A stretch of DNA of 35,357 nt from Clostridiales bacterium DTU023 (lineage in GTDB: Bacteria; Bacillota; Clostridia; Saccharofermentanales; DTU023): contig LFTF01000037.1 of NCBI GenBank assembly GCA_001512945.1, positions 1,044 through 36,400 of the forward strand. Direction: 5' to 3'. Positions 9,086 to 25,066 of this stretch are shown piece by piece. The notes beneath the pieces were generated by a model. That model saw only the letters and a list, made by a program, of their open reading frames with translations, had not been told where the DNA came from and ran no database searches. The number at the start of each line of letters is the position of its first letter. The stretch's first letter is position 1. The position numbers and the translations under genes are program-made.

Positions 9086-9162
9086 AATTGGTGGATCATT
9101 CCCTTTCATCGTTTGTTGGCTGAGTCCGGCCCTGACGCTGATTCGGGAGTATAGGAGGATAT

Positions 9163-9426
9163 ATGGACAAAGAAACGAAACAGACCATCATTGACGCGTA
9201 TGCTACGCACCCGAGTGACACAGGATCCCCCGAGGTGCAAGTCGCGCTATTGACGTGGAGAATCAAACATCTTACAGAACATTTAAAGGTTCATAAAGAG
9301 GATTTTCACTCACGTCGCGGACTGTTGAAGCTCGTCGGACATAGACGTGCGCTGCTCGATTATCTGATTACTATCGATATCGATCGCTATCGTACTCTTG
9401 TTGCCCGCCTGGGCCTCAGACGTTAA
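9163..9426 (+). CDS. rpsO: 30S ribosomal protein S15
   Basis: S15 is a primary binder of the 16S rRNA central domain and forms a bridge to the 50S subunit. The 87-residue protein has the diagnostic [28 protein letters not shown] and [27 protein letters not shown] lies just before the ATG. The rpsO-pnp order downstream is the classical arrangement in many bacteria. Confidence 0.97.
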
Positions 9427-9438
9427 AGAAGACAACCT

Positions 9439-9467
9439 TGGCGGCGAGTTCTAATAGCTCGCCGCCA
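9439..9467 (+). terminator. GC-rich hairpin after rpsO
   Basis: TGGCGGCGAG pairs with CTCGCCGCCA (10 bp, nine-base loop) just after the rpsO stop. No T-tract follows, so it may be a processing or mRNA-stabilising stem between rpsO and pnp as easily as a terminator. Confidence 0.55.
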
Positions 9468-9514
9468 TATGTGTTGCCAGATGAGATTGCGGTACTGGGA
9501 CGTAGATTGCGCCC

Positions 9515-9532
9515 CTCTTCACGATAGAAGAG
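9515..9532 (+). repeat. Small hairpin in the rpsO-pnp spacer
   Basis: CTCTTC-ACGATA-GAAGAG is a perfect 6-bp stem. It lies between the rpsO end hairpin and the larger folded element at 9587-9658, so the 262-base spacer is structured through most of its length. Confidence 0.4.
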
Positions 9533-9586
9533 ATGCGGACTCTACTCTCTAATGCCTTAAATCTCACTAGTGAACAATTAAATTGA

Positions 9587-9658
9587 TCGCGCCCGTTGCC
9601 GGTATTCGGCACGTCATTTCGCTGACCCGAACTGATGGGCATTGACGTTCAGGCGCGG
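9587..9658 (+). ncRNA. Candidate three-way-junction RNA element in the pnp leader
   Basis: An outer stem pairs CGCGCC (9588-9593) with GGCGCG (9652-9657). Inside are a TGCCG-GTATT-CGGCA hairpin (9597-9611) and a CGTCA...TGACG stem (9612-9616 with 9643-9647) capped by a small TTCG/CGAA helix. The element ends 31 bases before the pnp ATG. It matches no riboswitch class I can recognise. It could be a pnp autoregulatory or RNase III-sensitive structure, as known for pnp leaders elsewhere. Confidence 0.45.
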
Positions 9659-9688
9659 AACGCTATGTGTTAGTGAGAGGAAAAATAA

Positions 9689-12214
9689 ATGCAAAAACAC
9701 AAATATGAAATGCAGCTTACGGGCAGACCGTTAACGCTGGAAGTAGGCGAACTGGGTCAGTTCGCGAACGGATCGGTATTAGTCCGATTTGGAGATACAG
9801 TTGTCCTGACAACGGTAACAGCTTCAAACGAACCAAGGGAGGGGATAGACTATTTCCCTCTTTCCGTCGATTATGAAGAAAAAATGTATAGCGTAGGTAG
9901 AATCCCAGGTGGATTTCTCAAGCGCGAAGGTCGTCCCACTGAATACGCTGTCCTGACAGCGCGTTCGATTGACCGGACGATCCGACCACTATTCCCGGAT
10001 GATCTCCGAAACGATGTAGTGGTCAATAACTTGATCCTTTCTGTTGATCATGACAATTCGCCTCAGGTTGCCGCGTTAATCGGCACCTCGGCGGCTCTTT
10101 CGATCTCGGATATTCCGTGGAACGGTCCGGTCGTTGGCGTTCAGGTTGGTATCGTCGATGGTGACATCGTCCTTAATCCCAATCTCGAGCAGTCACAAAA
10201 GTCGGATCTCGATCTCTTCCTTTCTGGCACAATTGACAAGATCAATATGATCGAAGCTGGTGCCAATGAAGTCAGTGAAGAACTGATGATGGAAGCGATT
10301 GAAGAGGGACACAAGGTCATCGCCGAGTTGTGTGAGTTGATCAACCGTATGAGAAGCGAGATAGGCAAAGAATACTTTGAGTATGAGTCGCAAAGCGTAC
10401 CGGAAGAACTCTTGCGCAGTGTGTGTGACGAATATCGTGAGCGCATGCGTGAAGCAGTTCTTTCAGTCGACAAAAGGGTACGTGACTGTGCTGTATCGGC
10501 TTTGAGTAAAGATATACGCACGTTTATAGAGACGGAATTCGAAGACAGTGTCAGCTACACGGCTACAGTGATCGATGAATTGCAAAAGCGTGTTGTGCGC
10601 GATTATCTTCTCAATGAAGAGAGGCGAGTCGACGGGCGTGACCTCAACGAGATCCGACCACTGACAGCCAAAATCGATCTACTGCCTCGAGTCCATGGTT
10701 CCTCACTATTTTCACGCGGGCAGACACAGGTAATGACGATTTGCACCTTAGGTACAGTTGGTGATGCACAGCGTCTCGACAGTATTGAATCTCAAGAAAG
10801 CAAACGTTATATGCACCAATATAACTTCCCGGCTTACAGCGTCGGTGAAGCTCGTCCGAACCGTGGAGCCGGTCGTCGCGAAATTGGGCACGGCGCTCTG
10901 GCGGAACGCGCCCTTCTCCCGGTCCTGCCGGGGATTGACGAGTTCCCCTATGCAATTCGTTGCGTTTCCGAAGTAATCATGTCGAATGGATCTACCTCAC
11001 AAGCATCTGTCTGCTCCAGTTCACTGGCGTTGATGGCCGCAGGTGTGCCAATCAGCAAACCGGTCGCTGGTATATCTTCAGGTCTTATGATTGATCCGGA
11101 AGATACAAGCCGCTATCTCGTGTTCATGGACATTCAGGGTATTGAAGACTTCTTTGGTGACATGGACTTTAAGGTTGCCGGCACTCGTGACGGAATTACG
11201 GCGATCCAGGTTGACATTAAGGTAGATGGTTTGACGCTTGACATCATTCGTGACGCTTTCGCTTTAACACGCGAAGGTAGACTCCAAATTCTTGATGATG
11301 TGATGGCGCCTTGTATCGCTGAGCCGCGCTCTGAGCTTTCGCCCTTTGCGCCTAAGATCGATCAAGTTGACATTCCATCCGATAAAATCCGTGAGGTCAT
11401 CGGAGCAGGCGGTAAAGTTATCCGTCGGATCGTCGAACTCTCTGGGGCGCAGATTGACGTCGAAGAAGACGGATCTGTCGGTCATGTTTATGTTTCGTCA
11501 ACTGATCCCGACGCAAGAAAGAAAGCAGTGGATATTATCCATGCGATCGTCTTTGATCCCGAACCCGGAACTTCCTTTGAAGGCACCGTTACGCGATTGA
11601 TGACATTTGGAGCTTTTGTTGAGATAGCTCCAGGTAAAGAAGGTTTAGTCCACATCTCGAAGATGGCATGGCATCGCGTTGGTAGCGTTGAAGATGTCGT
11701 GAAGGTTGGAGATGTGGTCAAGGTTCATGTATCAGAAATCGATGATCAAGGCCGCCTGAATCTGGCAATGCGCGATCCAGCGGATAAACCAGAAGGTTAT
11801 GTGGAAGAAAGCCGCGAGCGTTCGAGCGGACGGAGCGACAGACGCTCATCCGGATCGAGCGGTGGCAGGAGTTTCCGAAGCAATGACCGAGGCGGACGCG
11901 ATGGTGAGCGTTCTGATTCATACCGGGGACGCGAACGCCGTGATAGCACTCCGCGCTCCGACTCTTACCGAGGACGCGAACGCACTGAAAGTGCGCCGCG
12001 CTCTGATTCGAACCGTGGACGCGAACGCACTGAAAGTGCGCCGCGCTCCGACTCATACCGAAGACGCGAACGCACTAATGATGCACCGCGATCTGACTCG
12101 TATCGCGGACGCGAACGTACCGAAGGTGCGCAACGCGGCGAGCAAAGTGAACGTCGTGATAACGATGATCGCGGAGAACGTAAAGGCGAACCCAGAAACG
12201 AACGCCGTTTCTAA
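9689..12214 (+). CDS. pnp: Polyribonucleotide nucleotidyltransferase (PNPase) with long RG/SR-rich tail
   Basis: PNPase degrades RNA 3'-5' by phosphorolysis as a trimer, and can add tails in reverse. The order is RNase PH domain 1 (from about residue 12), helical linker, RNase PH domain 2 with FFGDMDFKVAGTRDGITAIQVDIK, a KH domain with the GAGGK loop near residue 570, and an S1 domain (about 626-700). At 841 residues it is roughly 140 longer than usual. The extra tail is rich in R, S, G, E and D and contains five 15-residue repeats of the type DSYRGRERTESAPRS. The same S1-plus-tail sequence recurs twice in the next gene. The SD is GAGAGG. It follows a structured spacer after rpsO. Enzyme assignment is firm; the tail is probably disordered and RNA-binding. 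Confidence 0.96.
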   Translation: MQKHKYEMQLTGRPLTLEVGELGQFANGSVLVRFGDTVVLTTVTASNEPREGIDYFPLSVDYEEKMYSVGRIPGGFLKREGRPTEYAVLTARSIDRTIRPLFPDDLRNDVVVNNLILSVDHDNSPQVAALIGTSAALSISDIPWNGPVVGVQVGIVDGDIVLNPNLEQSQKSDLDLFLSGTIDKINMIEAGANEVSEELMMEAIEEGHKVIAELCELINRMRSEIGKEYFEYESQSVPEELLRSVCDEYRERMREAVLSVDKRVRDCAVSALSKDIRTFIETEFEDSVSYTATVIDELQKRVVRDYLLNEERRVDGRDLNEIRPLTAKIDLLPRVHGSSLFSRGQTQVMTICTLGTVGDAQRLDSIESQESKRYMHQYNFPAYSVGEARPNRGAGRREIGHGALAERALLPVLPGIDEFPYAIRCVSEVIMSNGSTSQASVCSSSLALMAAGVPISKPVAGISSGLMIDPEDTSRYLVFMDIQGIEDFFGDMDFKVAGTRDGITAIQVDIKVDGLTLDIIRDAFALTREGRLQILDDVMAPCIAEPRSELSPFAPKIDQVDIPSDKIREVIGAGGKVIRRIVELSGAQIDVEEDGSVGHVYVSSTDPDARKKAVDIIHAIVFDPEPGTSFEGTVTRLMTFGAFVEIAPGKEGLVHISKMAWHRVGSVEDVVKVGDVVKVHVSEIDDQGRLNLAMRDPADKPEGYVEESRERSSGRSDRRSSGSSGGRSFRSNDRGGRDGERSDSYRGRERRDSTPRSDSYRGRERTESAPRSDSNRGRERTESAPRSDSYRRRERTNDAPRSDSYRGRERTEGAQRGEQSERRDNDDRGERKGEPRNERRF
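11915..12139 (+). repeat. Five in-frame 45-bp tandem repeats in the pnp tail
   Basis: Units start at 11915, 11960, 12005, 12050 and 12095. Each encodes 15 residues (DSYRGRERxxxxPRS pattern); the last is the most diverged. Third-position differences between units show that the array is not brand new. Because units are exact multiples of three, copy-number change would keep the reading frame. Confidence 0.9.
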
Positions 12215-12342: not shown

Positions 12343-13116
12343 ATGGAAAATATGAATGAAAATACCTTTAATCCCCAACCAGGCGATGTCTACGACGGCA
12401 CCGTCAAAAGAATAATGACTTATGGGGCCTTCGTTGAAGTAGCCCCGGGTAAAGAAGGTCTGGTACACATCTCGAAGATGGCATGGCATCGTATTGGCAG
12501 TGTCGAAGATGTCGTCAAAGAAGGCGATGTCGTCAAGGTTTATCTCGAAGGTATCGATGATCTTGGTCGTCTAAATCTGGCAATCCGCAATCCAGCAGAC
12601 AAACCAGAAGATTATGTTGAAGAACGTCGCGAGCGCTCAAGCGGAAGGGGCGACAGGCGTCAATCCGGATCGGGCGGTGGAAGAGATTTCCGCAGCGATG
12701 ATCGGGGCCGACGCGGTGGGCGCTCTGATTTATCAGGATTTAAGGCAGAACCTGGTACAGCGTTTGACGGAACCGTCAAACGATTGATGACATTCGGAGC
12801 CTTTGTTGAGGTTGAGCCGGGCGTAGAAGGCCTGGTCCATATCTCTAAGATGGCTTGGCACCGCGTTGGCAGCGTCGAAGATGTTGTCCAAGTCGGTGAT
12901 GTTGTCAAGGTTTACGTCACAGAGATCGATGACCTAGGTCGTCTCAATCTGTCGATGCGCAATCCTGCTGATAAGCCTGAAGGTTTTGTTGAAGAAAGCC
13001 GTGGACGTTCGGGTGAGAGACGCTCATCTGGTGGTTCAGGCGGCGGCAGAAACTTCCGCAACGACGACCGTGGCGGACGCGGTGGCTCATACGGCGGAGG
13101 ACGCGATCGCCGGTAA
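12343..13116 (+). CDS. Two-S1-domain RNA-binding protein with RG-rich linkers, paralogous to the PNPase C-terminus
   Basis: The 257-residue protein consists of S1 domain (about 12-85), RG-rich linker (about 95-130), second S1 domain (about 133-205) and an RGG-type tail ending [14 protein letters not shown]. Both S1 copies contain [12 protein letters not shown](I/V)GSVEDVV and GRLNL, nearly identical to the S1 domain of the adjacent pnp; linkers also match the pnp tail at nucleotide level. It has no catalytic domain, so it is probably an RNA-binding accessory or chaperone protein, perhaps sharing RNA targets with PNPase. AGGA (12331-12334) supports ATG 12343; the Met at codon 4 is an alternative. 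The leader is a tRNA-Trp remnant. Function is inferred; the paralogy is directly visible. Confidence 0.88.
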
Positions 13117-24364: not shown

Positions 24365-25066
24365 GTGACACTTGACTTGACCACATTGGAGACTAGGCTG
24401 GGTTTTTCATTCAGTAATCAACAGCGATTGCTGGAGGCGTTGACGCATCCCTCTCATGCTTACGAAAACGGCAAGCAAGAAGTGGACAATCAGCGCCTCG
24501 AGTTTTTGGGGGACGCGGTTTTACAGTTACTAGCTTCTGAGTATTTCTTTATTGCCAGACCAGACGCGCCAGAAGGTGAGATGACAAAGCTGCGCGCTGA
24601 CGTTGTCTGTGAGCAGACACTTACTCAGGTTGCCAACAGTCTGCAACTTGGCTCATATTTGCGCCTTGGGCACGGAGAGGCTCTGACGGGAGGAGGCTCC
24701 AATCCGTCAAATCTCTCAGATGCGCTAGAGGCAGTGATCGGTGCGATTTACCTTGAAGGTGATCTTGATCAAGTTCGGCAGGTGGTGGTTCGGTTGTTTG
24801 AGCCCTACTTTAAATTGTCGCTTGCCGGACATTTAACATACGATCATAAAAGCAAGCTTTATGAATGGGCTCAGGCACGCGATGACAAAGATATTTCATT
24901 TCGTGTTCAGGAGGAAATAGGTCCTGACCATGACCGCCGCTATATTGTTGGGCTTTATATCGATGGAATTTTGAAAACTGTCGGATCAGGCAGAACAAAA
25001 AAGGCAGCGGAGCAGGACGCTTCGTTTATATTTTTTAAAGAAAATGATAGAGGATTGATTGGGTAG
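24365..25066 (+). CDS. rnc: Ribonuclease III
   Basis: RNase III cleaves double-stranded RNA, including rRNA precursors and scRNA. The catalytic domain has the signature NQRLEFLGDAVLQLLASEYFF and later NLSDALEAVIGAIYLEGD, with the metal-binding acidic residues. A dsRNA-binding domain follows (about 160-230: YDHKSKLYEWAQ ... GSGRTKKAAEQDASFIFF). GTG 24365 is the start; no upstream ATG is in frame. Its SD is modest and lies in a possible hairpin. It ends two bases before smc, so the two are cotranscribed. Confidence 0.96.
   Translation: MTLDLTTLETRLGFSFSNQQRLLEALTHPSHAYENGKQEVDNQRLEFLGDAVLQLLASEYFFIARPDAPEGEMTKLRADVVCEQTLTQVANSLQLGSYLRLGHGEALTGGGSNPSNLSDALEAVIGAIYLEGDLDQVRQVVVRLFEPYFKLSLAGHLTYDHKSKLYEWAQARDDKDISFRVQEEIGPDHDRRYIVGLYIDGILKTVGSGRTKKAAEQDASFIFFKENDRGLIG

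Follow-up and report, generated by a model that had tools for sequence, protein, structure and literature searches.

Organization of the rpsO-pnp region

The window, i.e. the whole stretch of 35,357 nucleotides analysed here, comes from a Clostridia genome of 1.4 Mb in 132 contigs and contains rpsO immediately upstream of pnp, the gene presumed to be regulated, as well as rnc, which encodes the presumed processing enzyme. The features of the region are as follows.

9163-9426, + strand: rpsO, ribosomal protein S15 (TIGR00952, E 1.4e-36)
9439-9467, + strand: GC hairpin immediately 3' of rpsO (terminator-like scan match, weak U-tract)
9588-9657, + strand: candidate three-way junction proposed earlier (not conserved)
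9675-9681, + strand: Shine-Dalgarno sequence GAGAGGA of pnp (from the sequence)
9689-12214, + strand: pnp, PNPase (NF008805, E 3.6e-274)
24386-25021 (profile match span), + strand: rnc, RNase III (TIGR02191, 221.8 bits, above cut-off)

The rpsO-pnp spacer (9427-9688, 262 nt) is strongly folded, as the initial annotation had stated, with a predicted fold of -96.9 kcal/mol (z -4.59) that none of 200 shuffles equals in stability. The 10-bp GC stem named there is present at 9439-9448/9458-9467 and is probably an rpsO terminator or attenuator; equivalent GC hairpins, often with T-runs, stand 3' of rpsO in relatives. The same annotation had singled out a compact three-way junction nearest pnp. Its CGCGCC/GGCGCG outer arms do exist (9588-9593/9652-9657); as a conserved junction RNA it was rejected, the segment downstream of the long hairpin described below having a z of only -0.6 in the window and the region varying in sequence, length and shape among the spacers of relatives, with neither shape nor sequence kept in 12 relatives of the same genus. 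Some relatives carry other multi-hairpin folds at this side of the hairpin, and in a subset of the genus (L005 and L007-L010) an outer GTACTC/GAGTAC stem or similar encloses hairpins with TTCATT loops.

Structure of the pnp-leader hairpin

A long hairpin lies between the GC stem and the junction region, from which it is a distinct element. Its parts are listed below.

9482-9566, + strand: whole hairpin (inverted repeats I1 and I7, MFE fold)
9482-9488 and 9560-9566, + strand: outer stem, TGAGATT paired with AATCTCA (inverted repeats, MFE fold)
9486-9561, + strand: conserved core, 76 positions of covariance model R1 (61.2 bits)
9499-9501 and 9546-9548, + strand: 3x3 internal loop, GAC on the 5' side and TCT on the 3' side (alignment columns 15-17 and 116-118)
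9502-9509, + strand: 5' strand of the core, GUAGAUUG, paired with 9538-9545
9538-9545, + strand: 3' strand of the core, GACUCUAC (from the alignment)

In the window the hairpin comprises 37 pairs spanning the loop and by itself reaches a z of -4.9. The 6-bp CTCTTC/GAAGAG hairpin of the initial annotation is real, but it forms only the tip of a longer stem (9502-9520/9527-9545). In the conserved layout, read from the outside inwards, the 3x3 internal loop is followed by a 7-bp helix, then by a G.G mismatch (G9509.G9538 in the window, within the pairing of the two core strands) and finally by a terminal stem whose length varies; the consensus is GU(A/G)G-NNN-GUAGAUUG ... GAAUCUAC-NNN-CUAC, its 5' half being also written GURG-NNN-GUAGAYUG. 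The element is unbranched and has no junction. A rho-independent terminator is not called at 9482-9566, such a site being the separate stem at 9439-9467.

Conservation and covariation

Spacers from 13 genomes of the same genus and from over 40 others belonging to the same order were compared, and the long hairpin is the one feature that they have in common; in one genome of the order (L054) the motif was not seen. Across carriers the stem measures 26-48 pairs (median 34), and its end lies 15-192 nt (median 29.5) from the pnp start codon. In an alignment of 98 sequences (96 distinct) the 5' GUAG never varies and 97 of the 98 have the G.G mismatch; since the alignments were assembled from sequences found by motif, part of the core's conservation reflects that selection, but the double changes in the stem do not. 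Such changes on both sides occur in 19 of 26 pairs. With 37 sequences the covariation score is 0.472 against 0.180 for shuffled alignments; with the 98 it is 0.474, where shuffled alignments give 0.167 and slid ones no more than 0.139. None of 500 shuffles reaches it, and since shuffling ignores relatedness, the slid controls offer the fairer comparison.

The hairpin is nearly palindromic, its reverse strand scoring 27.4 bits against 61.2 bits, which would suit an operator acting at the DNA level. G-U pairs, however, far outnumber A-C combinations on the sense strand (188 versus 60 overall, 53 versus 5 in the core), indicating selection on the sense RNA rather than on a DNA palindrome, while the varying loop length, the covarying inner stem and the failure of every shuffle to reproduce the covariation score speak against both an operator and a chance structure. 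We regard either as very improbable.

Distribution of the hairpin and its linkage to pnp

When the whole genome of the window was searched with R1, a single place was found, the window copy, which is matched on both strands. Among 392 Clostridia genomes there are 50 carriers from 20 genera, with one place each, and pnp lies directly downstream at all 30 R1 loci examined. A sample of 399 Bacillota genomes, in which Clostridia make up only a part and for which stricter filters that lose weak matches were used, gave no match besides the window's own genome. The hairpin is tied exclusively to pnp, and in this respect the PNPase autoregulatory site suggested by the initial annotation fits a covarying conserved RNA element, although the element is the long hairpin and not the junction. 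A small-molecule sensor, also considered there, finds no support.

The proximity of rpsO in most carriers raises the question of whether ribosomal protein S15 binds the element and couples pnp to rpsO, and a GG/CU step in some of the sequences does resemble the G-U/G-C motif of S15. At six of the 30 loci examined, however, the element precedes pnp in a fetched stretch that yielded no rpsO; it occurs at no second locus; in 64 of the 96 distinct sequences an A-U pair stands in place of the key G-U; and the conserved element has no junction. It also differs from an S15 autoregulatory leader in lying outside the rpsO leader and in having neither the G-U/G-C motif nor a mimic of the three-way junction as a conserved feature. 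An S15 site is therefore highly unlikely.

Other, probably related hairpins in pnp leaders

Other conserved hairpins occur in pnp leaders where R1, which defines class A, gives no match. Class B has the form GUAGCUUG ... GAGGUUAC and class C the form UUUAGCA ... UGCUAAA; class D is found in a few genomes. Covariation is present in classes B and C too. Among the 392 Clostridia genomes, class B occurs in seven and class C in 48, with zero overlap with class A, and pnp stands alongside at all 27 class B or C loci fetched. One of the class C matches (G075) is not on the contig that carries pnp and is likely to be spurious. In unfiltered searches the class A model scores 29.1 bits at a class B hairpin, in the same register, and matches several class C and D hairpins at the pnp leader weakly (at most 23.5 bits). 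These cross-matches make the variants probable divergent relatives and are suggestive of classes A to D being divergent forms of one element. For Rfam, the covarying leader element supplies a candidate family set.

Comparison with known RNAs

No Rfam family attains its gathering score at the element, either in the window or at 16 related loci, and Actino-pnp (RF01688) has no match in the window's genome at E <= 10; the initial annotation had likewise recognised no known class. The hairpin is therefore filed as a new RNA family of a known functional kind, the pnp-leader processing hairpins, and outside Actino-pnp. The main text of the candidate-RNA papers that we compared makes no mention of a Clostridia pnp motif, and a limited set of reviews and papers gives no pnp-leader control in Firmicutes.

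Several pnp leaders from other phyla have been studied. In E. coli, RNase III cuts a hairpin in the pnp leader, after which the pnp message decays (PMC5371410). The E. coli leader and the one described here both carry, 3' of the rpsO terminator and ahead of pnp, a long stem with imperfect pairing; they share no sequence similarity by eye, and cleavage, which is established in E. coli, is presumed here. In Streptomyces, RNase III cuts an intergenic hairpin in a mechanism termed autoregulatory (PMC4681348; PMC5872136), and the arrangement of a terminator followed by an RNase III-cut hairpin just before pnp (PMC5872136) is alike; that hairpin is actinobacterial, and the likeness is drawn from its description. 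Mapping of the pnp leader of P. acnes shows staggered cuts (PMC3848588). Actino-pnp, a conserved structured RNA found in Actinomycetales, takes its name from pnp and is classed as cis-regulatory (PMC2864571); like the hairpin it resides in the pnp leader, but it belongs to a different phylum and is set apart here by the absent model match. Seemingly unrelated hairpins thus serve the same gene, pnp, in distant phyla.

The Listeria sRNA rliD (RF01494) is matched weakly at three Clostridia loci, in each case around the start of pnp; these matches reach into the coding region and, where traced, lie antisense to pnp. They fall below the gathering score and do not represent the hairpin itself; in Listeria, rliD presumably lies opposite pnpA. 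The annotated E. coli sRNA SraG is antisense to the pnp leader (L184, 284-499).

A proposed model for PNPase autoregulation

PNPase is a main 3'-5' RNA-decay enzyme, for which feedback control has been documented in E. coli and in Actinobacteria. The likeliest function of the hairpin, by analogy with E. coli and Streptomyces, is RNase III-dependent PNPase autoregulation. Stems of 26-48 pairs suffice for RNase III, which is encoded in the window and in 48 of 49 relatives, all 36 good genomes included; PNPase was found in 57 of 59 genomes. We propose that RNase III would cut the hairpin stem in the pnp leader, and that PNPase would then dock on the exposed 3' end and degrade the 5' strand of the cut duplex, perhaps aided by the fixed internal loop and the G.G mismatch. 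The processed pnp mRNA would be less translated or decay more quickly, and PNPase would thereby cap its own level. In some lineages, namely the window and one related family, an anti-Shine-Dalgarno sequence in the 3' arm might in addition be released once the 5' strand is gone. The feedback step leading from the conserved hairpin to RNase III and PNPase is what we infer; the joint proposal of an ancestral cis-acting pnp leader hairpin in a large part of Clostridia together with RNase III-dependent PNPase feedback seems to us reasonably probable. A covarying leader element present once per genome makes pnp-leader control in Clostridia testable in cultured species.

The constraint on the core sequence exceeds the needs of an RNase III site, which suggests a specific binder. 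The hairpin may be read primarily as a candidate site for PNPase (through its KH/S1 domains) or another RNA-binding protein, with the pnp mRNA repressed or protected as a result and RNase III cleavage incidental or absent. The invariant GUAG, CU and G.G mismatch flanking the 3x3 loop would fit such a site, as would the recurrence of the same core in the same register in class B and the weaker class A matches at class C and D leaders; the pnp leaders of like shape for which the compared papers give data are nevertheless RNase III substrates, and we think a protein site of this kind unlikely. A broader conjecture, which we put forward tentatively and consider somewhat doubtful, is that the tandem UAG steps around the purine-rich 3x3 loop, with the G.G mismatch, form an ancient class-wide recognition module for a specific protein, which persists as the divergent classes A to D in most Clostridia. 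If so, PNPase control in Clostridia would involve sequence-specific recognition in addition to the cutting of a generic stem by RNase III.

Promoter and Shine-Dalgarno signals around the hairpin

One family has a TATAAT box whose end lies, in most cases, 10-12 nt upstream of the position where the model begins, and the hairpin would therefore start near the mRNA 5' end. A long and stable stem in that position could block the entry of RNase J/Y and keep the pnp mRNA stable with no feedback. Most carriers, however, have the element in the rpsO-pnp spacer with no outstanding promoter signal (mean best score 6.6 outside the TATAAT family, versus 6.9 for whole-set shuffles), and a generic stem does not need an invariant core; we hold a stabilising role of this sort to be improbable. 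The promoter 5' of the hairpin was rejected as a general feature, being confined to that one family.

The RNase III-dependent autoregulation that we favour could be joined by a switch at the ribosome-binding site, for which the relevant segment is:

9562-9569, + strand: TCTCACTA (inverted repeat I5, 8 nt, 100%), which could pair within the hairpin or with TAGTGAGA at 9671-9678

The competition of TCTCACTA for the hairpin or for the Shine-Dalgarno region TAGTGAGA is a possible switch, with a predicted duplex of about -11 kcal/mol in the window. On visual inspection the pairing is evident in the window and in one family. Over the whole set, the leaders' own anti-Shine-Dalgarno pairs stand at -5.89 kcal/mol versus -5.30 kcal/mol when permuted (0 of 200 permutations as good), and within the genus 63 of 500 permutations are as good. 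As a general mechanism the switch was rejected, since it is weakly above permutation overall and non-significant in the genus.

Additional observations at the locus

The leader of rpsO (window 9098-9162) is kept within the genus as TTCCC..CATCGTTT..GG..GTCCG.CCC..ACGCTG..GGGAGTATAGGAGGA and is preceded by a -10-like TATGTTACAATA. It is a candidate S15 leader, its sole Rfam signal being a sub-threshold match to PyrD_leader.

The PNPase tail encoded at 11760-12211 is long, repetitive and Arg/Ser-rich, with repeats of SDSYRGRERTESAPR. Downstream of pnp, the window holds a gene (12343-13113) with two S1 domains and RGG-like linkers; it shows 76-82% identity to the C-terminus of PNPase and is apparently a duplicated 3' end of pnp.
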